This document shows positions 923 to 41,342 of a stretch of 59,507 nucleotides of DNA, piece by piece. The stretch's first letter is position 1. The number at the start of each line of letters is the position of its first letter. The notes under the pieces are model-generated. The model saw only the letters and a program-made list of their open reading frames with translations, was not told the DNA's origin and searched no databases. Made by a program: the position numbers and the translations under genes. This stretch comes from Nanohaloarchaea archaeon B1-Br10_U2g21 (GTDB lineage: Archaea; Nanohalarchaeota; Nanosalinia; Nanosalinales; Nanosalinaceae), in contig LKMP01000005.1 of the NCBI GenBank assembly GCA_001563915.1, forward strand, positions 1 through 59,507, given 5' to 3'.

Positions 923-928
923 AAAACA

Positions 929-1582: not shown

Positions 1583-1584
1583 AA

Positions 1585-2091: not shown

Positions 2092-2092
2092 C

Positions 2093-2317: not shown

Positions 2318-2328
2318 AGGTGTAAAAA

Positions 2329-2715: not shown

Positions 2716-2725
2716 AGGGATAGAA

Positions 2726-4541: not shown

Positions 4542-4544
4542 AAG

Positions 4545-5563: not shown

Positions 5564-5567
5564 GAAA

Positions 5568-5990: not shown

Positions 5991-6005
5991 ACAATATGAA
6001 CGATA

Positions 6006-6025
6006 TCTGCGAATTTATTCGCAGA
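6006..6025 (+). promoter_or_regulatory. Perfect hairpin between uL15 and secY
   Basis: An 8-bp perfect inverted repeat (TCTGCGAA and TTCGCAGA) with a 4-base loop lies in the uL15-secY spacer. It is not followed by a long T-run, so it does not look like a terminator. It may be an RNA processing or stability element, or an attenuator that lets secY be expressed separately from the ribosomal genes. The hairpin lies inside a 15-codon ATG-to-TAG mini-ORF (5996-6043), which ends nine bases before the secY start. Confidence 0.5.
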
Positions 6026-6052
6026 GAAGTGACGAGGTTTTAGATTAAAACA

Positions 6053-13965: not shown

Positions 13966-16900
13966 ATGTCAGAGCTAGAAAAAATCAAAATACTTCCACT
14001 GCTATTAGCAGTATTATTAGCTGTAGCTTTAGTCGGCGCTGACGCCTCAACGTATATACTGGATTCGACTACAGATTTTCAAGTAACTTCTGAAGGTGAA
14101 GACCGAGGAGAGTGGGAAGTATATTTTGTCTCAGATGAACTAGGCCTAGTAGAGTTTCAGTCTCAAGACTCTAATCAACTAGATTTTGAGAGTGTAGACT
14201 ATTATGATGGGTCTTGGAATGAAATTGAGCCAGAGTCTACTGAACCACTATCATTTGAGTGGAACCAATCAGAGGCAGAATACGGGAGAATTGTGTTTGA
14301 ACTCGAAGAGCCTGGAGATTATCAGGGCCAACTTTCATTTGAAGATTCTGAAAGAACAGTAGAGACCACTCATCGATTTGAGCAAGAAAGCAATATTCTT
14401 GACTTAGACTCGTTAACAGTTCCTTATTCTGTATGTAGTTTTTCTGATAACTTTTGGATATGTGATCCGGAAGAGGGAGAACCGGGTTACGAAGGAGAAC
14501 TGATAGAATTAGATCCTGATGAAGAAAAGTCAATTGATGTGCCTTCAGATGCAGAGGTAACTGATTTTTCATTTCTAATTGAATCAGTAGATGACCAAAG
14601 TTTGCAAAATTTTACTGGTAGCCAAGCTGTTTTTGCAGATCTCGGAGATGAGAGTGCTGTAGTGACTAAAAGCGCAGATACAGTAACTGTTTATTCTATA
14701 GAAGGTGAAGAATTATGGAGTCATCAGTCAGAATATGAAATTGATAGTGTTGATACAGGTACAATACAGCACTCTGAAGATACGGCTGAACAGCCAGATG
14801 ATATAGTGATCACAACTGAGAATTCTTTAGAAGTGTTGGATTATGAAGGAACTGAAGTATTCATGCGTTCAGGAGATGAGCATGGTCCTGTTCTTATTGA
14901 GGAATTAATCACAGATAGAGTTACTGATTCTAGAGACACAGGAGACGCTGATCGATCACAGTGTGTTGGATGTGGAGAGGATGCTCTAGAATTCGATATG
15001 GACTTTGAGGTGAATGATACTCAGGAACTGCACTATATTCAGTTAGCTATGAATTATTTTGAAAAAGAAGATGATCTCAATTTAGTAATCGGTGATTCTG
15101 AATACGATATTCCTGTGGAGGCAATTGACACAAGCAGTATAGATACAATAAAATCCGATTCTGATAATATTGACCAAATGTTAGGTCTAGAAGATAACTT
15201 AGTTCTAGAGACTCCTGATGAAGAATTAAACGCGGAAACGGATTATTTCAAACTACCTTTAGCAATTGCTCCTGAAGCCCAAGAGGAATTAGAGATAAAC
15301 ATAGGCCAAGAAGAGTATAGTGTAGCGCCTGAAGATGTAACAGAAGAACTAGATGCTGAAAATTATAATACTGTTGATAATCTAGACGCTCTTACACACT
15401 TAGATAACTCTATTAGTTATACTCCACAAGAACAAGTTTCTGAAGACTCTTCAACATATGTTGAAGTACCTCTTAACAGAAGAGAAGGAGAAGAAACAGA
15501 TCAAATTAGTTTAGAAATTGGAGGGGAACAGTATACTTTGTCCACCTCGGAGTTAGAAGCAACTAATGTTGAAAGATACAGTGATGATGAAGGAGAAGCA
15601 ACTTCAGGTAAAAGACTTTATGGTGATGACGAGCTAACATTTAATCTCCACTATGATATGCCTGAAGAATTTGAGGCAGAAGATCTATATCTTAAGACGG
15701 CATTTTCGCAGGTAGGGGATCACGCCCAAGACATAGACATCGATATTAATGAGGAAACTTATGAGCTAGACTCAGAACAGATAACAACCTCAAGTTCAAC
15801 AGAATATTCTATTAATGACGGCGCACAGAATAACAGTACATGTATAGGCTGTGATGGAGGTCTTAGACCTGAGTTTGATCTCACAGCTCTAGATATAGAG
15901 GATTCTGGAGAAAATACTGAGATCGGTTTCAAAGCATGCCGCGAAGGAGAGGAGAGTGAAGAACTTGAACTAAGAGGATCAGGCCTTGATACTCGGTATG
16001 AGTTCACGCCGGAGGTAGTAGAATGTTCTGAAGGCTTTGAATGGATCAGTTATACAGTAGACGGGAGCGACATTAGAGATGACTATCTTGCTCTTAACTG
16101 TGAAGATTGTGATGATGATAATTACTACAATTTGGCGGCAGATGATTCAACAGGAGGAGAGTATTCGAGAATATTTAATCAATCTGAGAGTTCCACTATA
16201 ACAGACCTTGGCTATGACTATATGATTAACGCCAGTACAGATACAGCCCTCGACTTTGATTTGGCCAAACTACCTGTAGATAAAGAAGATATAGAACAAG
16301 ACGCTGAAGTGACTTATAGCTGTCAAGACTGTACTGATGAAGAACACTACAGACTTATGCTTGATGACTCAACTTCAGGAAACACTTTTTACAGTGAAGA
16401 ACAGGTAGAGGCTGAAGGAGATGCAATAACAAGAGTATGGACGAATACGTCTTTAGATTATGAGAATGTAAGGACTAGAGTAGATTCTGAAGATCTTGCA
16501 GAAGAAACAGAAATAGATATAACGTGTAATACATGTGATGAAGGGTATAATATACTTAGTGAGGATTCTGAAGGAGAAACTAGAGACGGAGAGGACTTAC
16601 TAAGCACTGAGATCGGTATTAACATTATCGAAAAACCTGTTGTTTATGAATGGGTAGAAATTCCTACTGAAGGGCAAGAATATTTAGAGAATGATGCTGA
16701 AATTAGCTGTGAAGGCTGTGAAGATGAATATTATGTTGGACTGGACTCCGGATCCGATCTTGAGTCATACAGAGACTCTGAAGATCTTCCACAAAACTTT
16801 GGAGGCAGTACATTTAGATTATGGACTAATAGTAGCTTAGAACATGATTTCATCAGAGTTCCGGTTGATGAAGAAGATATAGAAGAGGAAGATAGAGGAA

Positions 16901-19900
16901 GAATAGAGTGTGATGATTGTAATCAACCTTCATATAATGTAATGGTTGATGAGGACTCAACTCTTGACTCTTGGGAAATACAAGGAGGAGAGGAGGAAGA
17001 GCTTTCAGGCGGATTAATGGCTCGCCTAGAATCTTTTGGCACAAATTTAGGTAATGAAATAGTAGTCAGCAGGTCTCCGTCAACCCTAGAAGTATACAAC
17101 AGCACAGGGAGTATAGTGTGGGAAGAAACAGTAGAAAACACAATCTATGATCTAGTTACTGGTCAGGTCGAAGAAAGTGAGACTGGAGAAGAAATAATAG
17201 TTGCAACAAGAGAAGACGTTAGGGTATACTCGTCTTCTTCTGAAGAACTTATACGAAGTTATCCGGAAACTGGGGAAGAATGGGTAAGGAAAGTCGAAAC
17301 AATTGATGCCACAGGCGATGGAACAGAAGAGATAGTGGTAGGTACTGACAGCGGAGAACTTATTGCAATAGATGAAGATAATGAAGAAGTATGGTCTAAA
17401 GACTTAGGAAGTAGAGTTAGAGGTTTAACAAAGGGAGAGGTAATTAGAAATGAGGAAAAATCTCTTGTAGCAGGTCTAAATGATGGTACAGTTGATGTAA
17501 TCTCTTCTGACGGTCAGAGAATTCTGGATTATGAGGGAGAAGAGCCTGTTGTATCAATTGATGCCGAAGATGTAATTTCAAGAGAAGGGGATGAAGTAGG
17601 AGTCTCAAGAGAGGATACTAATGTGTTTAACATGTATTATTCTCCAGAAGACGTAGTCTTTGGAGTTAACTCGGAACAAGCTTTCGAGTTAGAAGGAGTT
17701 TTGAGAGGAAGTGATCAAGTTGAAGACTCAGAAATCACTAATGCTATTAATGAGTATCTTGATGCCTGTGAAGATGAAGTCTGTTCAGTACCTTTAGCTA
17801 TTGAAGCCTCAGAAGATGGAGCAGCTCAGATTTCAAATTTGGAAGTAGATTTTGATTATGACGTAAGCGAGGTTATAGATAGTCAAGATGAAGTTATAGA
17901 ATGGGCAGAAACTGAAGAAATTGAAGCGGGGGAAGAAATAAGGTTCAACGCTCTCGATATCTTTTACCAAACAAGTCCTGCTATTCCTCTAAGAGTAACA
18001 CAATTTAGATCAGATGGTATTACAGACCACCTTGCAGGAGGCGATTTTGACGGCAATGTTATCTTCAATGACTTGACACTGTCAATTGACGCTGAAACAT
18101 CCACTATTGATTTAAGAGATAGTAATAAGTCATTCTGGCTATTTGGAGATGGAGAAGAGAGACAATCTGATAGAACATGGTACCGTAGCGATGAAGCCGA
18201 GTCCCCTGTAGAGATTAACTCTACAGAGTTTGAAACAGTAGATGGATTTGACCAGAAAAATGCCACAGTGTTTAGGAATACGGAAAGAACCGAAGATTCA
18301 TTCCATAATGTTACAGTAGGGATGAGTTTGGATGAAGAAGAAATCAGGGGGGAAAGATTTGTAGAAGTAGAGATAAACGGATCTTGGAAAGACATAACTC
18401 CTGAAGTAGAGGGATGCGAAATATACAATGAGAAAGAGATAGACGAAGAAGTGTTCAAGAGCTGTATGGAAGACAGTAACGGATCTGGAACGATAGACAG
18501 AGTTGAAGTAGTACAACCTGAAGTAGGAGCCCAAGAATCAGAGACAGAATACAGAGTAGGAGGAAGTTCTAATCTGCCTCCAGAGATAACAAATCTCTCA
18601 GTTTCCCCAACAGAAGAAGTTTGGGGTACTGAACACAATGTAGTAGCAGAATTCGAGAACGAAGAAGAAGATAATATCGATGCAAAACTCTGGGTAGACT
18701 CAGAAGAAGGTTGGCAAAAACAGGATGAAAGCATTATTTCTGGCTACGAAAATCAAGTAGAGCTTGAATTTAATACAGAGAGAGAAATGATCGGTTCCAG
18801 AGACCTAAAAATAGAATACGTGGATCTTGATGAAAATGAAGAGCCTATCAGGCCTCCTGTAAACAGTACGGATATAGAAAATCCGCAAATTGAAACAGTT
18901 GACGTATCTGAAAGGCCTATAAGTTTAGATATAACTGATTCGGGAGAGCAAGAGATTGACAGAATAGGTCAAGAAAACAGCGTTGAACTTGCGGTTTTAG
19001 ATGATATAGATGATGTAACAGTAGATAGCAATGATGCCTTCTGTTTCTTATGGGCGGATAATGGCGCCACAACTCTAGTTGACACAACTTTTACTTCCGA
19101 TACAGGAATTTGCCAGCTTGATTTAGAGAATTTGGATGATTTGGATGTGGGTGAAAGAAATTGGTGGATCGAAGTAGACGGACAAGATTTCTACATGGAT
19201 AATCAGACTGAAACTCAGAATATTAATCTAAAAGGTAACATGGAGTTCGATTTAGAGTTTGAAGATAAGAAAGCATTTTTAGAGAATGAACATGATCTTC
19301 CTGAAGAAGCCGAGTATGATATATCTAATGTATTGGATTTAACAGGAGAGGATAGGGAACCTGAAAGTGTAGACATTACGTTTGATGGCCGTAATTATCC
19401 TGAAAGTCCTACTGAGGAAGATGACTATCAAGGAGAACTAAGACCTGAAATATATCAAGATACTCCTGAACCAGGAGAAGTAGAAGTTAGCTTCATATTA
19501 GAAAAAGAAGCCTTCAATGATGCGGAACAAGAAATTAACTTTACAGTAAAAGACTCCTTTGAGTCAGTTTTATCAACTTCTGAAGATGCTATCGATCAGA
19601 GCGAGGCAGTTAATCTTACAGCTGATTTTGAAAGATCAGGAGAAGAAGTAAATCCTGAGAATGTAACATTTGATACAGAAGCCGATGGGTTCTGTCAAGA
19701 AATATGGGATGATGGGTCTACGGTAACATGCGAGTTTGCTGCTAGTTCAAGTCTATCCAGCGGAAATTATAATTGGAGTGTTGATGCTGAGAAAGATTAT
19801 AACGAACATGTGCAAGGACAGGACAGCTTTGATGTAGTGGGAGACATAACAGCAGAAATAGATATTGAAGATGATGAAGTTTATAGAAACCCGGATTCAG

Positions 19901-22900
19901 AAGAGTCTAACCGGTTGTCATACAACATACAGGATATTGAAGATGAGGAAGGAGCTAGTATAACTGACGCAGATTACTATCTAGAAGTTCAGAACGAAGA
20001 CGGAGAGTTTGAAGAATTAGACTCAGGAAACACTGGTAATAGCAACTCAGCTCAAGAAGAATACACAATAGATAGCGAAAAAGAAGTAGGAGGAACCAAC
20101 TTTAGAGTAATAGTTGATACAGGAGATAATGAAGTTACAGAAGTTAAAGAAGTAGACGTATTTGGTACTTTAGAGGCTGAAACTACTGAAACTGAGGATG
20201 TGTATATTCCAACAACAGAGACGCTGACTGATGATGACTTCTCGACCACTACCGATCTACAAATTCAAGTAGAAGATGAACTGGAAAATACTGTAGCTGA
20301 TTTTGAAACAGAATTTAATAGGCCTGAAGGATCTTGTAGTGAAGAAAATGGAAACTGTGAGTACTCTCCAAGTTCAAATCTTCAAGCAGGACAATATGAC
20401 TGGAACGCTACTGTAGAAAAAGAATTCTATGAAACCGCACAAACAGAAAACGAAGAAGTCGTAGTCAAGGACGTTTTAACTTTAGAACTGCCGTCAGGAG
20501 ATGAAGGAGTAGTAGAATCAAGCTTTGAGGACGAAGTAACACAGACATTCTTTTTAGAAAACTCAAGAGGAGACAGAATAGATGCTACAGGTTTTGAAGC
20601 AAGTTTAGAAGATGAAACTGCAGCATTTACCGATGAGCAAGCCCAATTAGAATGGGGTGTGGCGTGCGAAGCCTACAATCGGGGAGAACAAACGTTAACC
20701 GCACAACTAGTGGAAGAAGATCCGAACAATCTGTACAGTATTTTTGACGATTCACAAGAGTTAGAACTGGTCGTCAATAATACTCTGGACGTCAATATTG
20801 GATCTCCTTTAGACGTAGAAGATGAAGATGCTGAGGCATATACTCAAGGAGATAACATAAACTTGGAAACAAACGTTACGGGCGAATGTGGAGAAGAAAC
20901 AGAAGAGTTCGATGATGACATCGTATGGAGTGCTGAGATGATTGAAACAGAAGAGTCAGATACAATTGGAAGTGGTGCTGAATCAACGTGGAGCATACAA
21001 GATGAATTTTCAGGATTTACTGAAATTCAGGCAGAAGTAGACGATGATTATCTAGAAGAAAACACTGACTCTGTAGAAATTGCAATAGATGATGTAATCA
21101 CATTGAATATGACTGAGACGCAAGAAGAAGTTATTAGGGAGTTTGGAGAGGAAGAATGGAATGGGAGTTATGAAGCCTCAGTCTATACAGGAGAGGAAGA
21201 ACCAGCAAACGAGTCCGAAATAGATGAGGACTGGGAGAACTTTGAGGTAACATGGTACTTACAAGGCGAAGAAATAGATTCTGCAGAAACTAATGAAGAT
21301 GGAGTGGTAGAATTTGAGGTAGAATATGGGGAAGAATATGAGCCAGGAGAAGTAGAGTTAACAGTAGTTTTAGAGCCCATAGATGAAGAAGAACTTTCAA
21401 CTGCGATTATAGCTCCAGAACAAACAGAAGATATAGATGTATTAGATGAATCCAGAACCACGATATTAGAAGCTCCGGAAGAAGTTTTATTCCAAGATGA
21501 AGTAGATCTTGAAATGGAGTATGAGATAGCTTCAGGAGAGGAAAATAAAGACACACTTGATCCTAGCTTTGAATGGAGATATGAAAGGCCTGAAGACAGT
21601 GTTTCAATAGGTATAAGTTCCGATAAACAACCTGAGTGGGCAATATCTAGCTCGATATACAGAGAAGGTCTGATAAATGCTACCACTGAGGATGATTTGA
21701 TAACTTCATCTTCAGATAACCAGACGCTTATCGGTAATAGGGAAGCAAACATAGAGACATGGGATCCTCAACCAAATATTCCTAGAGATGAAGTAACAGA
21801 ATTTTCTGCAGAGGTTGATACGCCTGGCCTTTCAGATCCTTCAGGTTATGAGGTGAACTTTTCAGTATTCAATCCTGATGAAGAAGATGACAGAGAAGTT
21901 GTAGATGTGGCTGAACTCGATCAAGATGGAGTAGCAACCATTAACTGGGATGCATCCGAGTATGATCCTGGACAGTACACTACTTTCTTAGAAATTGATG
22001 ATGACGAAGAATTGTTTATAGAGGCAAGCGAACAGAATGAAGAAGAACGCCAAATAAGTATTGCTGATGATGTAGAAGTAACCGCATATTTCAAAGATAA
22101 TTTAGAACCAGTTCCAGGTACTAGAGATGAAGACAACATTCATGGCACTCGTTTCGATAACCTCCCTACAAACGTAGTTTATAGAGACCCTGGACCATGG
22201 CAACATCCTACTGAGATGTATTTCGGTGTAAATCTGACCGCACCTTTAGCAAACGAGCCTGGCGAGGCATTAGTTGATGAGGCAGATGCCATATTTGAGA
22301 TAGAGCACAATGAAACATCTGAAACTCATGAGGTACAAACCTGCGAGATAGATGCTGAAGATCCAGAGACAACATCTGAAGACTTCTTTGATTTTTATGG
22401 ATGCGAAACTATCTGGGATGCTTCAGAAATGGGGAGTGATCTTGAGGTAGGAGCTTATACGCTTAACATCAGAGTAGATCCGCCTTCTGAGGATTGGACT
22501 GTCCAAGAAGAAACCGGGCTAGATTTAGAGGTCAGAGGCCAGCTACAGACCGAAATTGTGAGCCATAATACTGAAGACGGAAATATTGAACAATACATAA
22601 TGGGAGAAAATAATACTATAGACCTTGAGGCTGAAGTAACTGATTTAACGACAGAAGAAACCTTGGACGCTGAAGATCTAGATGATGTAAGATGGAGGTT
22701 GATGGATAGTAGCTCTGGAAGTAGTGCAAGAACAATAACCTGGGACGACCATGACAGCGGGTCACAAAATGAGCTCGAAACATGGATTGATCTTTTCGAT
22801 CCCGGAGATGATTGGAGAATGAGGTCTAGCTCACAGTACATTGGAATTTATGTTGAAAAAGAGTATTATGAACCAACTAGAAATACTCACAGAAGAAATC

Positions 22901-28900: not shown

Positions 28901-31900
28901 CAGCCGAAGAACTAGGATGCGAACCTGTTGAAGATGAACTCGATGCTGATACAGAAGAAGCTACGTGCCTGATAAATGCTACAGCAATAGATCAAGCAGG
29001 AAATGATGAATCAACAGGCTATGAACTCGTAATCCAAAATAATCCTCCAGAAATAGTTGAAGATTCATATGAACTGGATGGTGTTATTGAGGGTGATCCT
29101 CACGATTCAGCACTTCCTGATGAAGATCTAGACTTGTCTATAGAATCCGATAATCCTATTTCAGATACAGAAGCAGATTTAACAGCTATCGAACAAGAAA
29201 CAGGGAATATTGAAGGAGGCCCTGTATCTCTTAATGATGATCCGTCCGGGGAAGACAACTATAATAAGACTTTTGCTACTCAAGATTTAGGAATTACAAG
29301 CGGTCTAATTGATTTCACAGTGAACATCACTGATGAAGCAGGAAATACTGCTGAAGACATATACACATTAGACCTGGATACTGTTCCTCCTGTCATTGAA
29401 GACGTCTATGTAAATAATACACAGCCAGAAACAACTAGAGATACAGTTGAGATTAAAGCAAATATTTCCCATCCATTTAACGTAAAAGAAGGAATGGAAG
29501 GCGCCTACATCAATGTTACTGCTCAAAACAATGAATCCTTCAAAGAACAGATAAATCTAGAAAATATTGAAGACGAACGAGAATCCCCAGATATTAACTC
29601 AGGAAACTTCTCAGCAGACTTTATTCCGCCAGATACAGACACGTACGATGTAAAAGTATTCGCAGAAGATGAGTTCGATGAACCAGAAGATGAGCTTTTT
29701 GAAGAAGTTTTCACTTCTATTGGTGAAGCAAATCTTGAAGTAAGTATGAGTCCAGAAACTATTGAATTTGATAATATATCTGTAGATAATCAAGATCAAT
29801 ATCAGCTTGAAACAGTCTTAGAAAATACAGGTGAAGCTTCAGCGTATGATATACTACTTCAGCCTTCAAATATTGTTACAGGAATTGAATCAAATATAAG
29901 TGATAGAGACTGCGGTATCTTGGAGCCCGGAGAAGAGTGCTCGGTAATATCAGAGATTAATGTAACTGCTGATGCAGGAGCAGGCGATAGAACAATTTCA
30001 TCAAATGCGTTCTGGGAAAATCCCGACAGAACTTCAGGTTCAGCAGCTGAAGCAAGTAGTGTGGTAATAGATCCAAATCCAGTTCTTGACATAACGTCCG
30101 AAAGTCATGAAGAAGAAATAATAAGAGGAGAAACAGGCTCTCTCGAAATAGAACTTTTAAACAGAGGGAATATGATTTTACAAGGCATAGATGCTAGCAT
30201 AGATTCAACAGGAGGACAAATACTCGGAAGTAATGATTATGAATTTGACGAAGTAGAAAGCATAGAGATAGGCGAATCTAAGACTCAAGAAATACAACTA
30301 ACAGACAATCTTGAAGACAAAGGAGAATATCCAACGACATTCCTATTTGAAACAGAAGATCCTTCAGAAGAATGCGACGAAGATTGCGAATCAACAGCAG
30401 ATTCGAATATTACAGTCTTCCACCAAGCATCAATAGGAGTAGATCAAGAAGATAAAACGGTAGATAGAGAAGAAGGAAAAACAGTTGATATAAATGGTGA
30501 AGTAATTGACGATGAAGATGTGCCTGTAGAGAATTACAGTGTGCAGTATATTGTGGATCAAGAAGAACCTGATATAGATGAAGCTAAAATAAATGAAACT
30601 CTTGAAACTAGTTCCTCAGGAGAGATATCAGAGCAGATAGACCTTAGAGAAGATGGTTTTGCGCCAGGAGAATATAATGTTAGATTAGAAATAAGCGAAA
30701 ATAGTTCAAGGTTCTACAGAACTGATCAAGAAGTTGATGAATTCTCTTTAGAAGTAAGAGATGAGCTAAATGTTGAACAAGACCTTGTAAGCAATTCGAC
30801 ATTATGGTATACTGACGTAGATGATCCGATAATAGCAGAATACACTGCAACAGACAGAGAGGGAGAGCCTGTGGAAGGTGCTGAAGTACAGTTCCGAAGT
30901 AATTCTACACAAGGAGTAGAAGACCTAGAAGATGTAGATGATGAAAACATAAACTCTACCTGTCCTACAAATAGCGAAGGAGTGTGTGATATTGAATATA
31001 GGCCTGATAGATCTTCACAGGCATTTGCAACAATTGAAAGCATAATATCGAAGAACGAATACTATGATTTCTCGCCTGTAGACCTACAAGATGATATAGA
31101 AATAGAAGGAGATTTCTCTGTCGTCATAACTACGCCTGAAGAAGAGGAAGGACTCTTAAGAGGGAATGAGTATGATATTCAGGCAGTCGTACTCGACAGT
31201 GAAGGAAATCCGATAGAAGCTGAAAGCTTAGAAAGTATTGACTGGAGAATAAACAATTCGGACGGCGAAACAATTAAAGAGCCGGGAGAAGACACCGCGA
31301 ATGAGACAACTTGGGACATACCATCAGACAAATCTACTGGAGAATATACTATAGATATACGTGCTGAAGATGATGATAATCAGCCTCCGGCTACAGATGA
31401 GGTATCAATAAATGTGTATGAACCAGTTACAATAGATAATACATCTGTAGAGACAGAAGTTGCTGAGAGAAAGAATTCTGAAATAGAATTTGATTTAACA
31501 GTTCAAGACTCCAATGATGAGGCTTTAGAAAACTATGAAATCTGTCAACTGTTTGTTGAAGGAGAAGAAAGAGATAATACTACTTCAGGTTCGGAAGGAG
31601 AATGCGAACTACTATGGGAAACGACTCAAAATGATGAGGTAGGTCCAAATACTGCAATAGTAGAAATAACAGAGTTCAGAGACGATGATAAATGGTACCT
31701 GCCGGATCCAGAAGGCCTGACGGAAGAAGAGTTTAGTATAGAACTTGAAGAAGACATAAATCTAACAGTTTCACAGCCTTCAACAGATGTGTACAGGGTA
31801 GACCCAGTCCCACTACAAGCTAATACTACAGATGCATTTGATAGATTCCTAGATACAGATATAGAGTGGCGATTAGAAGAATCAGATCAGATAATAGAAT

Positions 31901-34900
31901 CCGAAGAATTAGAATCCGAATTTAATGCATCCGATTTAGAATTAGGAGAAGAGCTTCTAAATATCACTGCTGAGAAAGGAGAGTATAATTCAGCATTTCA
32001 AGAGAATGATTTGACTCTGTTTGGACGAGCACAACATGAATTTGAAGTCAGTGATGAATACTTTAGAGGAGACAAAGTTGATTTAACAACCCAAGTGAAA
32101 GATGCTAACACAACCGATACAATCGAAGATGCAGAAGTAAACTTCTATGAAAATGAAGAAAAATTAGGAACTGCATCTACTAATAGTACAGGATGGGCAA
32201 ATCTTACGTGGGATACTGAAGAGTCCGATATTGGTAACAATAATATAACTGCAGAACTTGAAGATCAACAGGACATTTACTACAACCAGACAACAGGAAA
32301 CATAACTAATGAAGTATTCTTAGGTGGAGAAATTGAAACCGAGGTAACAGATATATCCGATAAAGAAATCTATAGAGACGAGTTTGCAGAACCATTACAA
32401 ACTGTATTTGAAATAAATACTACCGATGATCTTGGTGATCAACTAGAAAATGCAGATCAGGAAATTATAGTAGATGAAACAACAATAGGCAACTGTACAA
32501 CAGGAGAGTCAGGAACTTGCAGCTTTGAATGGGATCCAAGCAATGAAACAAGAATAGGGGAACTTACAGGAAAAGTAAACACAACTGCTGAAGATTACTT
32601 CCCGGCCCAGTCAGAAGAATTTAACTTGACTGTGCAGACTGCAGCAAGACCGGGGCTAGAAATCGAAGAAGAAATAGGATATAATTTCTCTGAATCCCAA
32701 GGAGCATCAATAAATTCCACAGTACTTGAAAGCTTCACAGGGCGTCCGATAGCAGATTATGACTTTGAACTTGGATGGGGTCAAAGAGATCAGCCTTATG
32801 AAGCAAGCATGAATCACGAAGATTGGGATTCTGAAGGAGAGATAAACAGCACAGAAATGGGTTTGGAAATTAACGAAACTAGCCTAGAGAAAGAAATCGA
32901 TTTGGAAAGAATTGATTTAGCTGAAATAAGCCTGAACAATCCTGAAAACGCCAATTGGAGTCTAGAAATTGGTAATGAGGAAGAGATATATGAGATAGAT
33001 TCAAATAGCACATCTGAAGAATTAGAGTTAGAGAATAACACGGTTACTGAATTAGACTTTGAAACAGATGGAAAACTTGTATTAGAGGAGTTAGTACTTT
33101 CAACACTTCAACTTGATGAGAGAAGAGAATTAAAATATTCTGAATTATGGGGTTCAGAGACTGGTAGAGAGTCAGATTCCGGAGAGTTCACTAATGCTAC
33201 AGTATCAGACAGTAATCAGCTGGAAGAAGAGATAGATGATCCTGATGAAACCCCTCAAGGATGGTACTATGAAGAGACAGACTATATAGATACTGAGATA
33301 GGGCCTGGAATTTTTGGCACTCAGGGATTAGTTGTTAATGCGACAGAAATGCCTGGAAATGAAAGTGCAACAATTATGAGAGACTATTCAGAGTTCTCTG
33401 GAACCTCAGTGTACGAAGAGTTTACAACTGTAGAATTTTGGATGAATTCGGAACTTAACGGAACACTAAACATGCAAGGAAGTGCCTGTCAAGAGAACTA
33501 CTCATTTGAAGGACTTGAATGGAGTCCTACTCAAATAGACATTAATTCATACCATGAAAATTGTGGGGAAGACGTGGAAAGAATAGAAGTAGAATTTGAG
33601 AACACCTTGGAAGACGAACTGGATACTGAAATAACTTTAGATATGTTCAACCGCTATAGGCCTTCGGACACAACTGAAGACAAGAAAAAAGAGTTAAAGT
33701 GGCTTCCTCCAGCCGCAGGTAACTATACCTTCAAACTCGAAATCGAAGAAGAAGAATACTACAACACAACAGAACAAATAGAAATAGTAGATATAGAGGT
33801 TATTTCAACTGGAGGAGGTCAGACTCCAGAAGATGATGAAGATGAAGTGCCAGAACAAATAGGTCCTATAGAATCATTTGAACTCGAACAAAATACAATA
33901 AACCAGACTGTTGGAGCAGAAACCTATGGGGACTTAACGCCGATAGGTGTTGCTAATGATGACCAACAAGCTATAAACATAAGCTCTTCAACTGTAGAAG
34001 GAGAAGAGTTTTTGGAAGCTCCAGATGACATAGAAATACAGGAAAATGGAGTTGAAAATATAGAGATTGGATATACTAGCCAAGAACCCGGGAATTATTC
34101 AGGAACTGTTGCTGTATTCAACTCTGAAACTTCTGAGAGAGATGATATAGAAGTAAACTTGGAAGTAGTGCCGGTAGAAATGGAGTTACTAGATATTGGA
34201 GCAGAACAAGGCACTGAAAATGTAACAGAGGGAGATAAAATATACACGACTGCAGAAGTAGCAGCTGACGAAGAGCCTGTAACAGAAGACATTGACTGGA
34301 ATGCTAGCGTAGAAGAGGAAACCTGCGATAATACTAATGCCGACTCTAACAGTACTACAGGCATATGGAACATAACATGTGAAGCGCCAAGTGTAGAATT
34401 TAATCCTATAGAAACAGAGTTCGAGCTGATTGCAGAATATCAAGAACTTGAGCTAAGAGACAATACAGAATTAGAGTACCGGGATGTAACACCCCCATTT
34501 GTCACATCTAAAGATGCAGAAAACGTAGAGCAAACTCAAGAAACAACAATTGAAATCGAGGCCTGGGATAACGTAGAAGTAGATAGAGTTGAAGGACATG
34601 TCGAATATATTGAAAACGAGACCGATATGGGAGAAATCCAGTTCCAGAACACAGAAGATGACTGGTATCGGGCAGAATTTGACAATACATCTTATGAAGG
34701 GGACTATGATGCTGTAGTAGAGCTAGAAGATGTTAATGGTAATGAGAAAACTGCAAGAGTTCCATTCTCAGTTCACCCATATGTAGACTTATCAGGAACA
34801 AGTACAGAAGGAACTTCGTTTGAGTTCAGAAGGCCGGGAACGGAATCAGTCTTAGAAAGATACGAGCTTGAAGAGGAAGAATTCAATGTAACAGCCCAGA

Positions 34901-37524
34901 GAAGAGACTACGATTTCGGAATAGAAACTGATGTGGAGCTAGAAGAATTAAACACGTTCCAGGCCCTAAACGCTGGAGATTCTCATAGGCAAGGTGTTGA
35001 ATTCTATGGTATTAGCTTGATTAATAACACTAGAGATCCTGTAAATGTTTCAGGAGGGTATATTGGAGAAACCGTTCCTTTCGAAAGACCTGAAGATACT
35101 ACAGGATACACATTCTCATCGCTATCCTATAATACTAGTTTTGAGTATGAGGAGTCTGAAGTTACATTAGACTATTCAGATACTGGAGAAAGTCCGGATG
35201 AGATACCGGAAGAGCAGCTCAACATATATTGGTGTGAGTCGAGCCAAATCTCTGAATGTTCAAGCACTGACTGGTTAGAACTTGATACAGAAGTAAATAC
35301 TACAACAAAGACTGCTGTTGCGGAGTCTCAGACATCATCCTCGTACATCCTTGAAAGAGAAGATGCTGGGGATGACGATGATGACGGAGCAGATGATGAC
35401 GATGGTCAAGAGGATGGGCCTGAAGATGGAGGAGAGGATGAAGATGATGATACAGGGGGAGCAGGACCATTGCCAGATGATGAAGATGATGATGACGGAG
35501 AAGCCGATGGTGATGAAGGAGTAATGGAGTTGCTTGAAGGTATGCTCGGTGAACAACTAGATGACTTCAGCGATGAAGAACTAGAGGAATTAACAGAAGA
35601 ACTAGAAGAGGAAGATATAGAAGGAATGTCTGATGAAGAATTAGAGGCTATTCTAGAAGGTATGATGGATGAGTTAGGAGAAGATGAAATAGAAGGAGAA
35701 GATCCATTTATGATTACTCCAAGAATATACCATCCGGTAATGCAACAGGGCGAAACTAGAACCTTTTTCATGGAGATAACAAATAACCAAGCAGAAGAAA
35801 TAGATGTGGACTTAGATGTTTCTGGAGATATAGAAGAAATATTATCGTTTACAGATGACTCTGTAGAAATACCTGCAGGAGAGTCAATGATCTCAGAAAT
35901 GACTGTAGCAGTTCCTGATGACGCAGAACCAGGCAGTTACAGCGGAGAACTGAACGCAGAATACGAAGACTTCAATAGAACTAGCTCTCACCAGATTTTA
36001 GTGACTAGAGAAGGAATGGATACGGTAGAATTAGATGTCCAAGCTCTTACATCAACAGTGCCTCCGGGCAATAACCTGACGGTTGGCCTGCAAATAGGAG
36101 ATGCAGAAATAACTACGCCATTTGATGCAGAGCTAGACTACTTAGTCAGGGAGAGTGAAACCGATCGTATAGTTTACAATCAATCAGAATCCAGGTTTGT
36201 AGATGAAGGAGAGACATTCCAGAGAGTAATGGATGTTCGGGATGAAGAAACAGGATCATATTATGTACAAGTCATGATGCAAGGATCTAATGTTACAGTA
36301 TCCGATTCAGATACATTTACAATAGATGAGCTATTCTGGACTCCGTTTAGAAGACAGGCAGCACTACTAATACTGCTAACATTATTAATCAGCATAGTAG
36401 GGTGGAAGGGATACGCATACTATTGGACTAGAAAGGAGGAGGGTGCTCGTTATGTGTTCCCTGTTGATTACAGTAGACTGCCTGTTGAAGATGACGAAAA
36501 TTACTGGGTCGGAAAGGTTGCTGAGACTCAAAAGAGCGCATTCGTTGATCCAAGCGATTTAACGACTCACGCAATAGTTTCAGGATCTACTGGTTCTGGT
36601 AAGTCTGTTACAGCGTCTGTGATTGTTGAAGAGGCGTTAGAAAAAGATGTGCCTGTTGTAGTATTCGATCCTACTGCACAATGGACAGGGTTTGTGAAAG
36701 AACTCCGAGATGACAACCTTCTCGAACACTACTCCCGATTTGATATGAATGAGGAGAATGATCCTCATCCATATCGTGGAATTATCCAAGAAATTAAGAC
36801 AGAAGACCCAGATTTAGACTTCGATGAGCTCAGAAGCCCTGGAGAAATCACTGTGTTCACATTGAATCAGTTGACGACTGAAGAATTCGATCAAGCAGTT
36901 AGAAAGATTATTGGCCAAATATTTGAGAAAGAATGGGAAGAAAGCCCTGACTTAGAATTATTAATTGTGTTCGACGAAGTCCACCGTCTACTTGAAGAGT
37001 ATGGTGGTCAGGGAGGATATCATGCATTAGAGAAAGGAGCAAGAGAGTTCCGTAAATGGGGTATCGGATTAATGATGTGTTCTCAGGTTACAGCAGACTT
37101 TAAACAGGCGGTATCAGGAAACATAATGACTGAAATCCAGATGCAAACTAAATCTATGGAAGATATAGAGCGTGTCGAAAAGAAATATGGGGATCAGTTC
37201 GCTAAAAGAATATCTTCATCTGACGTAGGAGTAGGAATGATTCAGAATTCAAACTATAATGATGGAGATCCATGGTTTGTTGATTTCCGTCCGACTTATC
37301 ACAATCCGCATAAAATACCGGATAAAGAGCTTGAAAAGTATCATAAGCTATCTAAAGAGCTATCGGAGCTTAAAGACAAGCTCGCTGAAAAAGAGGAGAG
37401 CGGCGAAGATGTCCGAGATAAGGACTTAGAGCTTCAATTAGCAGAAAATAAGTTGAAAGAAGGAAGATTCAAAATGGCTAAGATGTACATAGACAGCCTA
37501 AAAGACGAGATGAACATGTCATGA
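13966..37524 (+). CDS. Giant surface adhesin fused to a cytoplasmic HerA/DUF87-type ATPase
   Basis: 7852 residues, one uninterrupted frame. Order: signal peptide (1-27); beta domain; two beta-propeller blades (about 213-310); seven CxxC motifs at 333, 626, 712, 786, 854, 915 and 982, the last five in 61-74-residue repeats; more FG-GAP/PQQ-like blades (about 1010-1205, including DATGDGTEEIVVGTDSGEL); long Ig/CARDB-like region; about sixteen Ig-like repeats with AEDLAGN-type signatures (3575-5150); further Ig and invasin-like modules; a jelly-roll-like segment (about 6430-6570); Asp/Glu-rich stalk (7133-7246); two beta domains; one membrane helix (7465-7484); ATPase (7487-7852) with Walker A GSTGSGKS (7540-7547), Walker B LLIVFDEVH (D7670-E7671) and a sensor-like MMCSQVTADFKQAV. 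Hence the ectodomain is outside and the ATPase inside. The four-base ATGA overlap couples it to a minimal paralogue. Likely role is contact-dependent attachment linked to an energised pore or translocase; that is inference. Confidence 0.9.
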   Translation: MSELEKIKILPLLLAVLLAVALVGADASTYILDSTTDFQVTSEGEDRGEWEVYFVSDELGLVEFQSQDSNQLDFESVDYYDGSWNEIEPESTEPLSFEWNQSEAEYGRIVFELEEPGDYQGQLSFEDSERTVETTHRFEQESNILDLDSLTVPYSVCSFSDNFWICDPEEGEPGYEGELIELDPDEEKSIDVPSDAEVTDFSFLIESVDDQSLQNFTGSQAVFADLGDESAVVTKSADTVTVYSIEGEELWSHQSEYEIDSVDTGTIQHSEDTAEQPDDIVITTENSLEVLDYEGTEVFMRSGDEHGPVLIEELITDRVTDSRDTGDADRSQCVGCGEDALEFDMDFEVNDTQELHYIQLAMNYFEKEDDLNLVIGDSEYDIPVEAIDTSSIDTIKSDSDNIDQMLGLEDNLVLETPDEELNAETDYFKLPLAIAPEAQEELEINIGQEEYSVAPEDVTEELDAENYNTVDNLDALTHLDNSISYTPQEQVSEDSSTYVEVPLNRREGEETDQISLEIGGEQYTLSTSELEATNVERYSDDEGEATSGKRLYGDDELTFNLHYDMPEEFEAEDLYLKTAFSQVGDHAQDIDIDINEETYELDSEQITTSSSTEYSINDGAQNNSTCIGCDGGLRPEFDLTALDIEDSGENTEIGFKACREGEESEELELRGSGLDTRYEFTPEVVECSEGFEWISYTVDGSDIRDDYLALNCEDCDDDNYYNLAADDSTGGEYSRIFNQSESSTITDLGYDYMINASTDTALDFDLAKLPVDKEDIEQDAEVTYSCQDCTDEEHYRLMLDDSTSGNTFYSEEQVEAEGDAITRVWTNTSLDYENVRTRVDSEDLAEETEIDITCNTCDEGYNILSEDSEGETRDGEDLLSTEIGINIIEKPVVYEWVEIPTEGQEYLENDAEISCEGCEDEYYVGLDSGSDLESYRDSEDLPQNFGGSTFRLWTNSSLEHDFIRVPVDEEDIEEEDRGRIECDDCNQPSYNVMVDEDSTLDSWEIQGGEEEELSGGLMARLESFGTNLGNEIVVSRSPSTLEVYNSTGSIVWEETVENTIYDLVTGQVEESETGEEIIVATREDVRVYSSSSEELIRSYPETGEEWVRKVETIDATGDGTEEIVVGTDSGELIAIDEDNEEVWSKDLGSRVRGLTKGEVIRNEEKSLVAGLNDGTVDVISSDGQRILDYEGEEPVVSIDAEDVISREGDEVGVSREDTNVFNMYYSPEDVVFGVNSEQAFELEGVLRGSDQVEDSEITNAINEYLDACEDEVCSVPLAIEASEDGAAQISNLEVDFDYDVSEVIDSQDEVIEWAETEEIEAGEEIRFNALDIFYQTSPAIPLRVTQFRSDGITDHLAGGDFDGNVIFNDLTLSIDAETSTIDLRDSNKSFWLFGDGEERQSDRTWYRSDEAESPVEINSTEFETVDGFDQKNATVFRNTERTEDSFHNVTVGMSLDEEEIRGERFVEVEINGSWKDITPEVEGCEIYNEKEIDEEVFKSCMEDSNGSGTIDRVEVVQPEVGAQESETEYRVGGSSNLPPEITNLSVSPTEEVWGTEHNVVAEFENEEEDNIDAKLWVDSEEGWQKQDESIISGYENQVELEFNTEREMIGSRDLKIEYVDLDENEEPIRPPVNSTDIENPQIETVDVSERPISLDITDSGEQEIDRIGQENSVELAVLDDIDDVTVDSNDAFCFLWADNGATTLVDTTFTSDTGICQLDLENLDDLDVGERNWWIEVDGQDFYMDNQTETQNINLKGNMEFDLEFEDKKAFLENEHDLPEEAEYDISNVLDLTGEDREPESVDITFDGRNYPESPTEEDDYQGELRPEIYQDTPEPGEVEVSFILEKEAFNDAEQEINFTVKDSFESVLSTSEDAIDQSEAVNLTADFERSGEEVNPENVTFDTEADGFCQEIWDDGSTVTCEFAASSSLSSGNYNWSVDAEKDYNEHVQGQDSFDVVGDITAEIDIEDDEVYRNPDSEESNRLSYNIQDIEDEEGASITDADYYLEVQNEDGEFEELDSGNTGNSNSAQEEYTIDSEKEVGGTNFRVIVDTGDNEVTEVKEVDVFGTLEAETTETEDVYIPTTETLTDDDFSTTTDLQIQVEDELENTVADFETEFNRPEGSCSEENGNCEYSPSSNLQAGQYDWNATVEKEFYETAQTENEEVVVKDVLTLELPSGDEGVVESSFEDEVTQTFFLENSRGDRIDATGFEASLEDETAAFTDEQAQLEWGVACEAYNRGEQTLTAQLVEEDPNNLYSIFDDSQELELVVNNTLDVNIGSPLDVEDEDAEAYTQGDNINLETNVTGECGEETEEFDDDIVWSAEMIETEESDTIGSGAESTWSIQDEFSGFTEIQAEVDDDYLEENTDSVEIAIDDVITLNMTETQEEVIREFGEEEWNGSYEASVYTGEEEPANESEIDEDWENFEVTWYLQGEEIDSAETNEDGVVEFEVEYGEEYEPGEVELTVVLEPIDEEELSTAIIAPEQTEDIDVLDESRTTILEAPEEVLFQDEVDLEMEYEIASGEENKDTLDPSFEWRYERPEDSVSIGISSDKQPEWAISSSIYREGLINATTEDDLITSSSDNQTLIGNREANIETWDPQPNIPRDEVTEFSAEVDTPGLSDPSGYEVNFSVFNPDEEDDREVVDVAELDQDGVATINWDASEYDPGQYTTFLEIDDDEELFIEASEQNEEERQISIADDVEVTAYFKDNLEPVPGTRDEDNIHGTRFDNLPTNVVYRDPGPWQHPTEMYFGVNLTAPLANEPGEALVDEADAIFEIEHNETSETHEVQTCEIDAEDPETTSEDFFDFYGCETIWDASEMGSDLEVGAYTLNIRVDPPSEDWTVQEETGLDLEVRGQLQTEIVSHNTEDGNIEQYIMGENNTIDLEAEVTDLTTEETLDAEDLDDVRWRLMDSSSGSSARTITWDDHDSGSQNELETWIDLFDPGDDWRMRSSSQYIGIYVEKEYYEPTRNTHRRNHRNSGLQDRRNAFRQWEGEEARGEVTGAPAFRGYVNENVMDRINYRIPLELELAFPEEITDTDEDDRFEIRVDANRKGTDTSFNSFRGDYELTCLNCSENTDTHVQDAEDESGRSTGEWEFDFSEEEYNEYYEFEIVADSSRDGHITENDDSDDPAAIKQTVRVVRDLGAGEGDCEGDSNNTEPGENVEVCPNEYGFEDLPQSYWLNETATNLEDTIDDMEGPENPEDFDEEEHDFRWKQYQQFANESNEEYYEPDVRWYGEHSEYDELDAGGCNFNGETEGEDEFFESRESCTDWAITAEPPEFESIEVDTGYYRQDNQEPVQEVEAVVDYPTLDYFEFQYENPEGSRTALSPEGEDDSYPHTYIFDVYPEEFEGTFDIELIADTDESERTTETVTIYEDEEEITIDDIEVDDPVNEEEPDTQMDIELDLSGVTIDSDGVEKVGIDSDEDGNYDDAGVNLIFDESDESYTIEDVDFTAEDDTVDVKIFHKSGLESDSENAVFTFNEHDPEVDTFEILEEEDEPFKEGNVINFDIEISDEDEELDYAELTNPDGNQICEEELDDLENGQEVEEISCEYEIETTQTGDDLEFDLEVFDTAGRMGDETLQLEIDNDEPDIENIEIDPEDGIIAPEEEVDIQADISDQLDNIADTSVEDSEGSEVCSAGEFSNEGGDTYECTAIEGSDFEGSTTLEILANDEAGNENNETVEPEILVAANDPEITIKRPDAGALVSGEDVLIEANVTDEDGLLDEDEVEVELDDGTEAFTADMDGSGGSGGEFTYNLDTEELSDGEYSLTVYAEDLAGLDNSETLSEDIEIDNTPPEISIAAINDPITGDYTFEADIEDENDNLDEDALTYEIEDAEGSISQGDLEGSGTEFDTGDVDTTEFSEGDATITIEAEDLAGNDNDETSDPFNINNEPPEVNIIEPTGDSDEFFNEEVTVETNIEDEAGNEDEDSYSAQILDEGIDDNDPEINGDSVEFELDVSSLDTGEYTVEVEADDTENTGPTQETQNINVDTDFPIITSVSIPAENEVVKPETEIEITVQAEVEEDESSDIDLVEASFESGSSTVLSLESGDPDDGVWEGNLEAPDAESVHDIQIEATDLAGNTEEDSDTEVEVDDTPPSVADFGSDAEENEDGEAVTSSDDDVEFAVDATDSNDNLDEVRIEDSDEAVLDIFAENLEGESGGEYTITTSAEDLGLSGGENQLTAVGEDLAGNTGSDNYVVNVQDEDPEIEDFYLDDDVVQSDTNITATAEISSKWLDIVEFSHRGDTIEIDDEEIEQGDDGTQTFEIEIDSDGDHEEEVDVEVYAEDLAGNNNEDTISYEINDENPTIEEELEVEGSDEEISRSDNSLYFALEATDDFEVDRVELHGPSEDSIMDEDGDLYELDITPAQIGCNVDVDFEPCEINADVYDNAENMETSRTVTVNVDDEEPDVSDFTVDQDAVQTDTDVEFSANIDDGDPELETTEVRDSGDTICGLENGNEYSCIESFSEEGEYTLDAYTEDRAGNVNDDEAVELIVTDASPNIGNINDDANTNLDDVGVTRSDEEVRFEATVTDPDDLLVEEEVRIEGQQMESDENQPDVFYLEELPSNLGCVQTDHSECDLEITAEDEAGNQEQREHTIIVDDEPAEIEEVEMEEEVLTSGSTTEVTVRLEENEGEETVNYVEVEPSVSNNNNLTWNGEEWTGNIEIESTEASESSEDLEVRSVDFAQNTDEDTEQSYILDDEDPEVTNFASDAATNDEGEDIAQSDTDLTFDVTIADNVDIDKVEIGKPDDKTVVGEDLGEEETDVEDRSVTESITISSGDLGCTDTDFETCELKATVTDLAGNTGTDTYEVIIDDEPPALEEIELSDNIVQPNTEVEVFLDTDEESDRRIETIETQGDAEETDLEWDEEDGNWSATVELDDTEGQDRELEIFAEDWAGNTNDESKIYTVDDTPPTIEDLRTNSTNDIERSDAILEFSVEAENQFEELESVDVEGMEMERQTEETFAVDAAAEELGCEPVEDELDADTEEATCLINATAIDQAGNDESTGYELVIQNNPPEIVEDSYELDGVIEGDPHDSALPDEDLDLSIESDNPISDTEADLTAIEQETGNIEGGPVSLNDDPSGEDNYNKTFATQDLGITSGLIDFTVNITDEAGNTAEDIYTLDLDTVPPVIEDVYVNNTQPETTRDTVEIKANISHPFNVKEGMEGAYINVTAQNNESFKEQINLENIEDERESPDINSGNFSADFIPPDTDTYDVKVFAEDEFDEPEDELFEEVFTSIGEANLEVSMSPETIEFDNISVDNQDQYQLETVLENTGEASAYDILLQPSNIVTGIESNISDRDCGILEPGEECSVISEINVTADAGAGDRTISSNAFWENPDRTSGSAAEASSVVIDPNPVLDITSESHEEEIIRGETGSLEIELLNRGNMILQGIDASIDSTGGQILGSNDYEFDEVESIEIGESKTQEIQLTDNLEDKGEYPTTFLFETEDPSEECDEDCESTADSNITVFHQASIGVDQEDKTVDREEGKTVDINGEVIDDEDVPVENYSVQYIVDQEEPDIDEAKINETLETSSSGEISEQIDLREDGFAPGEYNVRLEISENSSRFYRTDQEVDEFSLEVRDELNVEQDLVSNSTLWYTDVDDPIIAEYTATDREGEPVEGAEVQFRSNSTQGVEDLEDVDDENINSTCPTNSEGVCDIEYRPDRSSQAFATIESIISKNEYYDFSPVDLQDDIEIEGDFSVVITTPEEEEGLLRGNEYDIQAVVLDSEGNPIEAESLESIDWRINNSDGETIKEPGEDTANETTWDIPSDKSTGEYTIDIRAEDDDNQPPATDEVSINVYEPVTIDNTSVETEVAERKNSEIEFDLTVQDSNDEALENYEICQLFVEGEERDNTTSGSEGECELLWETTQNDEVGPNTAIVEITEFRDDDKWYLPDPEGLTEEEFSIELEEDINLTVSQPSTDVYRVDPVPLQANTTDAFDRFLDTDIEWRLEESDQIIESEELESEFNASDLELGEELLNITAEKGEYNSAFQENDLTLFGRAQHEFEVSDEYFRGDKVDLTTQVKDANTTDTIEDAEVNFYENEEKLGTASTNSTGWANLTWDTEESDIGNNNITAELEDQQDIYYNQTTGNITNEVFLGGEIETEVTDISDKEIYRDEFAEPLQTVFEINTTDDLGDQLENADQEIIVDETTIGNCTTGESGTCSFEWDPSNETRIGELTGKVNTTAEDYFPAQSEEFNLTVQTAARPGLEIEEEIGYNFSESQGASINSTVLESFTGRPIADYDFELGWGQRDQPYEASMNHEDWDSEGEINSTEMGLEINETSLEKEIDLERIDLAEISLNNPENANWSLEIGNEEEIYEIDSNSTSEELELENNTVTELDFETDGKLVLEELVLSTLQLDERRELKYSELWGSETGRESDSGEFTNATVSDSNQLEEEIDDPDETPQGWYYEETDYIDTEIGPGIFGTQGLVVNATEMPGNESATIMRDYSEFSGTSVYEEFTTVEFWMNSELNGTLNMQGSACQENYSFEGLEWSPTQIDINSYHENCGEDVERIEVEFENTLEDELDTEITLDMFNRYRPSDTTEDKKKELKWLPPAAGNYTFKLEIEEEEYYNTTEQIEIVDIEVISTGGGQTPEDDEDEVPEQIGPIESFELEQNTINQTVGAETYGDLTPIGVANDDQQAINISSSTVEGEEFLEAPDDIEIQENGVENIEIGYTSQEPGNYSGTVAVFNSETSERDDIEVNLEVVPVEMELLDIGAEQGTENVTEGDKIYTTAEVAADEEPVTEDIDWNASVEEETCDNTNADSNSTTGIWNITCEAPSVEFNPIETEFELIAEYQELELRDNTELEYRDVTPPFVTSKDAENVEQTQETTIEIEAWDNVEVDRVEGHVEYIENETDMGEIQFQNTEDDWYRAEFDNTSYEGDYDAVVELEDVNGNEKTARVPFSVHPYVDLSGTSTEGTSFEFRRPGTESVLERYELEEEEFNVTAQRRDYDFGIETDVELEELNTFQALNAGDSHRQGVEFYGISLINNTRDPVNVSGGYIGETVPFERPEDTTGYTFSSLSYNTSFEYEESEVTLDYSDTGESPDEIPEEQLNIYWCESSQISECSSTDWLELDTEVNTTTKTAVAESQTSSSYILEREDAGDDDDDGADDDDGQEDGPEDGGEDEDDDTGGAGPLPDDEDDDDGEADGDEGVMELLEGMLGEQLDDFSDEELEELTEELEEEDIEGMSDEELEAILEGMMDELGEDEIEGEDPFMITPRIYHPVMQQGETRTFFMEITNNQAEEIDVDLDVSGDIEEILSFTDDSVEIPAGESMISEMTVAVPDDAEPGSYSGELNAEYEDFNRTSSHQILVTREGMDTVELDVQALTSTVPPGNNLTVGLQIGDAEITTPFDAELDYLVRESETDRIVYNQSESRFVDEGETFQRVMDVRDEETGSYYVQVMMQGSNVTVSDSDTFTIDELFWTPFRRQAALLILLTLLISIVGWKGYAYYWTRKEEGARYVFPVDYSRLPVEDDENYWVGKVAETQKSAFVDPSDLTTHAIVSGSTGSGKSVTASVIVEEALEKDVPVVVFDPTAQWTGFVKELRDDNLLEHYSRFDMNEENDPHPYRGIIQEIKTEDPDLDFDELRSPGEITVFTLNQLTTEEFDQAVRKIIGQIFEKEWEESPDLELLIVFDEVHRLLEEYGGQGGYHALEKGAREFRKWGIGLMMCSQVTADFKQAVSGNIMTEIQMQTKSMEDIERVEKKYGDQFAKRISSSDVGVGMIQNSNYNDGDPWFVDFRPTYHNPHKIPDKELEKYHKLSKELSELKDKLAEKEESGEDVRDKDLELQLAENKLKEGRFKMAKMYIDSLKDEMNMS
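36424..37524 (+). repeat. Duplicated ATPase module, copy in the giant gene
   Basis: Pairs with 38295-39395. The first 38 bases are identical; after that the two copies differ at many third codon positions, but only about 12 of roughly 365 encoded residues differ. This marks a domain-level duplication maintained at the protein level. Confidence 0.92.
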
Positions 37525-41016: not shown

Positions 41017-41342
41017 ATGACGCATATGAGAATGTAGAATGTAATAGGTGCGGTCACAAATGGTGGTCAACTAAATATGAAGAACACTTAATTGTCCCCG
41101 AATACTGTCCTAAATGTTATAGAAAATCTGTCCAAAAAATTCCTGAACCTCCTACAAGGATAGAGATTGTGGCTGAAAAAGCTAAAGAGAAAAAAAAGCA
41201 AGTACCTGTAGTTGCTAAGGAGAAAAAGCATGAATTAGTTCTAATAATCGAAAACAATCGAATGATGATAAGTATGGCGGCTACGGGAACAATAATAACG
41301 CTAATAATTGCAAGCATGATATATTTACTGTTCTTCATATAG
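41013..41342 (+). CDS. Zinc-ribbon protein with C-terminal membrane anchor
   Basis: 109 residues. N-terminal CNRC ... CPKC (about residues 10-13 and 32-35) with GHKWWST between them forms a rubredoxin-like zinc ribbon. A basic, Lys-rich linker (about 50-75) is followed by a C-terminal membrane helix (about 85-108, ending IYLLFFI). It is therefore tail-anchored with the ribbon in the cytoplasm. It overlaps the coiled-coil gene by four bases and is the last gene of the giant-ATPase cluster; a T-rich stretch follows at 41378-41386. Confidence 0.8.
   Translation: MNDAYENVECNRCGHKWWSTKYEEHLIVPEYCPKCYRKSVQKIPEPPTRIEIVAEKAKEKKKQVPVVAKEKKHELVLIIENNRMMISMAATGTIITLIIASMIYLLFFI

Follow-up and report, generated by a model that had tools for sequence, protein, structure and literature searches.

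Giant surface proteins that end in an intracellular ATPase were first described in nanohaloarchaea as SPEARE proteins, and similar intracellular regions were noted in other DPANN archaea (Hamm 2019, PMC6642349). The same design, together with a downstream ATPase gene, was reported again in 2023, giving rise to the idea of a 'secretion straw' (PMC10266531). The proteins concerned are very long (9,409 aa for SVXNc_0300, 8,880 aa for BNXNv_0298, 8,553 aa for SG9 and 5,998 aa for Nha. antarcticus), and no cultivated archaeon was said to have a larger protein than the one of 9,409 aa (PMC10266531). The SPEARE ectodomain of Nha. antarcticus has been detected by proteomics, whereas the cytoplasmic part was confined to gel fractions below 315 kDa, which suggests that motor and ectodomain may be cleaved apart (PMC6642349). 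A more distant point of comparison is CedD of the Sulfolobales, a membrane-anchored HerA/VirB4-like ATPase that forms part of the Ced DNA-import system and is required for DNA import in Saccharolobus; it contains a domain resembling the VirB4 NTD, and CedA-type channels and Ups pili are its working partners (PMC11868833). Cytoplasmic bridges of up to 11 nm have been reported with Ca. N. occultus (PMC11001535).

The giant protein and its reading frame

The window (the whole stretch of 59,507 nucleotides that was analysed, from Nanohaloarchaea archaeon B1-Br10_U2g21) carries a further member of this published giant–transmembrane (TM)–ATPase architecture (PMC6642349, PMC10266531), with the following parts outside the motor:

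13966–37524, + strand: giant TM–HerA adhesin gene, 7,852 aa, member of the SPEARE family
13966–14043, + strand: signal peptide, about residues 1–26 with a hydrophobic core at 7–25 (hydropathy, sequence)
14044–36330, + strand: ectodomain, residues 27–7455, acidic (pI 4.05) and Ig-rich
15841–16920, + strand: six CxxC motifs at residues 626–985, in the ectodomain's head region
36346–36402, + strand: single TM helix, residues 7461–7479 (hydropathy, AF2 model)

In an open reading frame scan of the window, positions 13966–37524 read through 7,852 codons uninterrupted, the other two forward frames of the same stretch contain 697 and 1,108 stops, and GC by codon position (0.57/0.34/0.27) is typical of real coding sequence; the single frame claimed in the original prediction is thus intact. 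Near-identical ATPase copies lying side by side, as they do here, are a classical cause of misassembly, and this favours reading the giant as an assembly or annotation artefact, that is, a chimeric frame or an ATPase produced only separately. However, the DNA of the two ATPases is only 85% identical across 1,100 bases, so the adjacent copy is not an assembler duplicate. Moreover, within the same family, the one-contig complete genomes G004 (SG9), G007 and G011 encode giant frames of 8,592, 9,433 and 8,891 aa that are colinear with the window giant, can be aligned with it along nearly their full length, share its C-terminal end and are each followed by a stub ATPase gene. These three relatives and the window giant are about 25–35% identical over the ectodomain, rising to 80% over the ATPase. 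Because these genomes carry homologous giants, the assembly artefact that the original prediction had warned of has next to no probability and is in practice excluded. An extra C-terminal product from an internal start may be made and would be compatible with the sequence.

The whole chain has just two hydrophobic segments, the signal peptide core and the TM segment, in line with the single membrane crossing predicted earlier; the AF2 model places the TM segment within a helix of 34 residues, and the positively charged KGYAYYWTRK comes after it. The ectodomain has 113 sequons for N-glycosylation, and its 68 cysteines are nearly all closely paired, compared with one cysteine in the ATPase part; together with the low pI of the ectodomain, these features are what one would expect if the ectodomain lies outside the cell and the ATPase in the cytoplasm. 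Hydropathy and composition thereby show a type I topology, with signal peptide, one TM helix and cytoplasmic ATPase. Like the described SPEARE proteins and giants, the protein has a signal peptide, a propeller- and Ig-rich ectodomain that makes up most of a very long chain, one TM helix near the C terminus, a cytoplasmic ATPase and a short ATPase gene downstream; it differs from them in its length of 7,852 aa and in belonging to another genus. Homology to SG9 SPEARE 1 extends from the colinear ectodomain to the P-loop region (81% identity).

Within the ectodomain, a stretch at about residues 1046–1189 matches PQQ/beta-propeller domains weakly, and Pfam identifies Ig-like/MG2 domains between about residues 3697 and 5807. 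The six CxxC motifs of the head region are evenly spaced, with around 60–90 residues between them, and may be sites for metal binding or disulfides. Laminin-G, serine-protease or toxin-like domains have been reported in SPEARE proteins (PMC6642349); a later re-analysis found such domains not to be defining and disputed the enzymatic ones (PMC10266531). In the giant described here, no Pfam match to any of the three was found at E 0.01, a threshold that diverged domains could escape.

A HerA-like motor and its stub paralogue

The C-terminal part of the giant and the gene that follows it comprise:

36424–37521, + strand: HerA-family ATPase and C-terminal helices, residues 7487–7852 (Pfam, fold, model)
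36583–36606, + strand: Walker A, GSTGSGKS, residues 7540–7547, conserved in relatives
36973–36978, + strand: Walker B Asp-Glu, D7670–E7671, invariant in 51 sequences
37521–39395, + strand: stub paralogue, 624 aa, with signal peptide, short Ig-like ectodomain, TM helix and near-identical ATPase

The original prediction had named a complete C-terminal HerA-type ATPase with Walker A at 7540–7547 and Walker B at D7670–E7671, and both motifs lie exactly there. Pfam DUF87 matches the giant with 46 bits (curated cut-off 23.2), DUF87 and HerA_C match 15 of 15 family members, and the closest PDB structure by sequence is HerA 4d2i (E 5e-16). Among NCBIfam profiles, HerA and CedD are the best named relatives; CedD is the top match for the window protein and is found in all 15 members, although its 46.3 bits fall far under the 600-bit cut-off of the equivalog, a distant likeness that would count against a DNA-import reading. 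A fold search with an alignment-based AF2 model of the Ig–TM–ATPase module (pLDDT 88, pTM 0.67) returned HerA structures at all of ranks 1–30 and the first conjugation coupling protein at rank 31; a model of the stub alone, made without an alignment (pLDDT 38), was set aside. Across 51 sequences, the catalytic set (Walker A, DE, REFRKWG and SQ) is either conserved or invariant, which shows an intact and strongly constrained ATPase.

The likeness to HerA (DUF87) thus covers the fold, the Walker motifs, REFRKWG (REGRKFG in HerA) and the SQ motifs. Unlike HerA, the module is membrane-bound, carries an ectodomain and comes without NurA or the HAS-barrel, the N-terminal domain of classical soluble HerA; the giant has no space for this barrel because its TM helix stops about 60 residues before Walker A. 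Unlike CedD, the ATPase is fused to a giant ectodomain, and no channel was found. The same genome also encodes a separate soluble HerA-like protein of 616 aa (L001:1201-3051), so the giant's ATPase is not the sole HerA of the cell.

These assignments bear on the published proposal for SVXNc_0300 and BNXNv_0298, in which the giant is an extracellular conduit through which a VirB4/TraG-like motor injects effectors into the host (PMC10266531). VirB4, TraG and VirD4 ATPases of type IV secretion systems (T4SS) belong to the same superfamily as the ATPase described here, and TraC and VirB4-like profiles do match it weakly. However, in the comparison with HerA and VirB4 that the original prediction had proposed, the HerA and CedD profiles scored above those of VirB4 and T4SS. 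The downstream ATPase gene has been said to carry the VirB4 N-terminal domain PF03135 (PMC10266531), but this domain was detected in none of nine genomes (the window genome, G004, G007, G011, G005, G021, G031, G041 and G040) by a search that gave a positive result in Caulobacter, and VirB4 membership through PF03135 was dropped. The frame lengths of G007 and G011 suggest that these are the two published strains; if so, the absence of PF03135 covers those strains. The VirB6/TrbL channel (PF04610) was likewise found in none of the nine, a search that diverged archaeal CedA-like channels would escape, and no T4SS channel component was detected. A chain of Ig domains, moreover, is expected to form a fibre rather than a tube. 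We therefore consider injection through a hollow giant unlikely; by profile and model, the ATPase is HerA/CedD-like, not VirB4.

The original SPEARE study proposed instead that the intracellular region is a type III restriction enzyme domain that digests incoming DNA (PMC6642349). Pfam ResIII does match the giant, but the match is limited to the generic P-loop core, DUF87 and HerA fit better, and no nuclease domain was seen in the module, leaving nucleic-acid degradation a very improbable function.

The start codon of the stub gene and the stop codon of the giant share bases (ATGA). The original prediction had overlooked this neighbour, which already provides a short, separate form of the TM–ATPase. 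The two ATPases share 95–97% protein identity, with 12 of 365 residues differing, six of them clustered in the C-terminal helices, and their divergence is largely synonymous (dS about 1.5, dN 0.036, dN/dS 0.023). Giant and stub ATPases of the relatives are 78–85% identical to each other, and the ATPase of SG9 (L063) is 80–81% identical to that of the window. In the tree, the giants of G004 and G007 and the stubs of G004, G007 and G011 form separate groups, whereas the window's giant and stub group together (support 0.999). The simplest reading is that an old giant–stub pair was gene-converted in this lineage and would have been kept near-identical by selection, as expected if both ATPases occupy one ring. 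In several lineages, the position held here by the ATPase stub is taken by a small type I membrane protein (Ig and TM, 233–315 aa) directly after the giant. A stub gene in Nha. antarcticus, if there is one, could also explain the ATPase signal at the lower mass.

Distribution and the coiled-coil partner

A profile scan of named genomes returned 282 related stretches, and the best 78 of these lie mainly in Aenigmatarchaeota and Nanohaloarchaeota, with others in Woese-, Pace-, Micr- and Altiarchaeota and one in a Hydrothermarchaeum. In nearly all intact relatives, about 71–93 residues separate a TM helix from Walker A, the C-tail is about 310 residues long and the ectodomain has hundreds to thousands of residues. 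The proposed survey of other DPANN thus found the fusion in several phyla; the original prediction had presented it as a new type of fusion, which does not hold, as the SPEARE/giant-protein family was already published and the TM–HerA core with a large ectodomain is, judged by these matches, widespread in DPANN. The family occurs in 46 of 115 sampled Aenigmatarchaeota genomes and in 15 of 28 Nanohaloarchaeota genomes; the 13 genomes that lack it include several that are near-complete, so it is not required for an episymbiotic lifestyle. Two Aenigmatarchaeota frames of 11,262 and 11,249 aa, longer than the 9,409-aa record, also end in the TM–HerA module:

G060:C2, match 63938–65074 (loci L141/L142): 11-thousand-residue member
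G090:C12, match 80705–81841: 11-thousand-residue member

In Hydrothermarchaeum profundi JdFR-18 (L095), the module comprises a giant TM–HerA protein, a small Ig–TM protein and a coiled-coil partner, an occurrence that may reflect binning contamination. To our knowledge, Hydrothermarchaeum is not known as an episymbiont, and the role of the module therefore need not be symbiosis-specific.

Two further genes follow the stub in the window:

39421–41016, + strand: coiled-coil partner, 531 aa, core at 39958–40563, next gene after the stub
41013–41342, + strand: zinc-ribbon protein with C-terminal TM helix, 109 aa

The core of the partner spans about 200 residues and has a recognisable motif (nERIs.LsEeIGELRS...). 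A homologue was present downstream of the ATPase gene in every first-compared related locus that reached far enough. A separate collection of partner sequences drew on preselected adjacent charged ORFs and is not counted as independent evidence, which comes from unselected neighbour clustering and whole-genome searches. Clustering of all neighbours placed the partner at 64 of the 78 loci, with the next cluster at 12; besides the partner, it yielded small Ig–TM proteins, rarely, and no conserved channel gene beside the ATPase at these 78 loci. Whole-genome searches found the partner in 14 of 15 ATPase-positive but 0 of 13 negative Nanohaloarchaeota, in 3 of 3 positive but 0 of 25 negative genomes of a third phylum, and in 40 of 46 positive but 2 of 69 negative Aenigmatarchaeota, the last figure depending on a cut below which weak hits (E 1e-11 to 1e-20), likely to reflect coiled coils in general, were not counted. 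In Aenigmatarchaeota, 53 of 61 ATPase genes have the partner no more than 5 kb downstream, and the two ATPase loci of G004 each have their own partner gene. The formal significance of this co-occurrence is inflated by shared ancestry; the patchy losses and matching copy numbers nevertheless make a functional link between partner and ATPase likely. The genome comparisons show two genes that, by this pattern, have been gained and lost together in three phyla.

No enzymatic domain was recognised in the partner by Pfam, and PDB searches gave generic coiled-coil matches only. A by-eye resemblance to the archaellum protein FlaC was rejected, with no such Pfam match in 21 members. The N-terminal part of the partner contains an acidic tandem repeat of EDEP/EAGD units (about 39745–39905). 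At the position of the zinc-ribbon protein, a counterpart occurs only in the compared nanohaloarchaeal relatives G004, G007, G011 and G027.

Upstream of the giant, a ribosomal-protein operon ending in secY (200–7438) places the system in a core chromosomal region with no obvious mobile element. Between them, a divergent gene (10071–13793, − strand) encodes a secreted membrane protein of 1,240 aa that has GH127-like and C5-epimerase-like matches and may bind glycans; a relative of it lies near the partner gene in G027.

Proposed grip and exchange at cell contact

A coiled-coil partner with no recognised enzymatic domain, one TM helix per subunit and the lack of a channel are all consistent with an adhesin whose ATPase senses force or contact: the HerA ring would cluster fibres and signal through the partner to the cytoplasm or cytoskeleton, with no translocation, and an ATPase in an adhesin could serve just such clustering or signalling. 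The invariant catalytic set and the very low dN/dS, on the other hand, suggest more than anchoring, and the well-studied members of the HerA/FtsK superfamily are polymer translocases. Sensing without transport is a serious rival, although we hold it to be somewhat doubtful.

The reading we prefer, while granting it rather less than an even chance, is a contact device in which the giant adhesin is anchored by and fused to a HerA ring ATPase that translocates a polymer on contact. In this device, a very long surface adhesin would be joined directly to a ring ATPase at the inner membrane face; the ATPases would form hexamers, which in the family of the window would probably combine a few giant subunits with several stub subunits in one ring, and the coiled-coil protein would serve as a scaffold or as an adaptor for cargo. 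Once cells touch, the ring would move a polymer across the symbiont membrane. The likeness to HerA and CedD points to nucleic acid, and CedD/HerA-like import of nucleic acid from the partner cell would be more likely than protein as cargo. The TM helices of the ring, or an unlinked CedA-like protein, could provide the channel. Against transport stand the absence of a channel gene nearby and of TrbL; because no channel was found next to the ATPase, and neither the VirB4 N-domain nor TrbL/VirB6 in the genome, any transfer, be it of DNA, RNA or protein, is still an inference.

Somewhat more tentatively, we propose that the family forms a self-contained, DPANN-wide machine for contact and exchange that is distinct from T4SS and has been acquired and lost as one unit in different phyla. 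In such a machine, one polypeptide would provide the grip, through its giant ectodomain, as well as the membrane anchor and the HerA motor; a short co-subunit in the membrane, either ATPase stub or Ig–TM protein, would set the stoichiometry of the ring, and the coiled-coil adaptor would be obligatory.

Judged by the searchable literature, novelty lies in the partner gene and its co-occurrence with the ATPase, in the assignment to HerA/CedD rather than VirB4, in what the stub is and in the members of 11 thousand residues; no mention of the partner was found in the main text of PMC10266531. These findings bear on the question of how tiny archaea attach to other cells and trade material with them despite their reduced genomes. 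Earlier knowledge of the giant-plus-ATPase design came from a few halophiles, where it was interpreted as a secretion straw; at its conserved core lies a HerA motor, anchored in the membrane, with a consistently co-occurring coiled-coil partner, found across Nanohaloarchaeota, Aenigmatarchaeota and other lineages. This turns a curiosity into a defined two-gene module with testable handles on grip and exchange, the small expressible parts of which (stub ATPase and partner) permit biochemistry without the protein of about 870 kDa.
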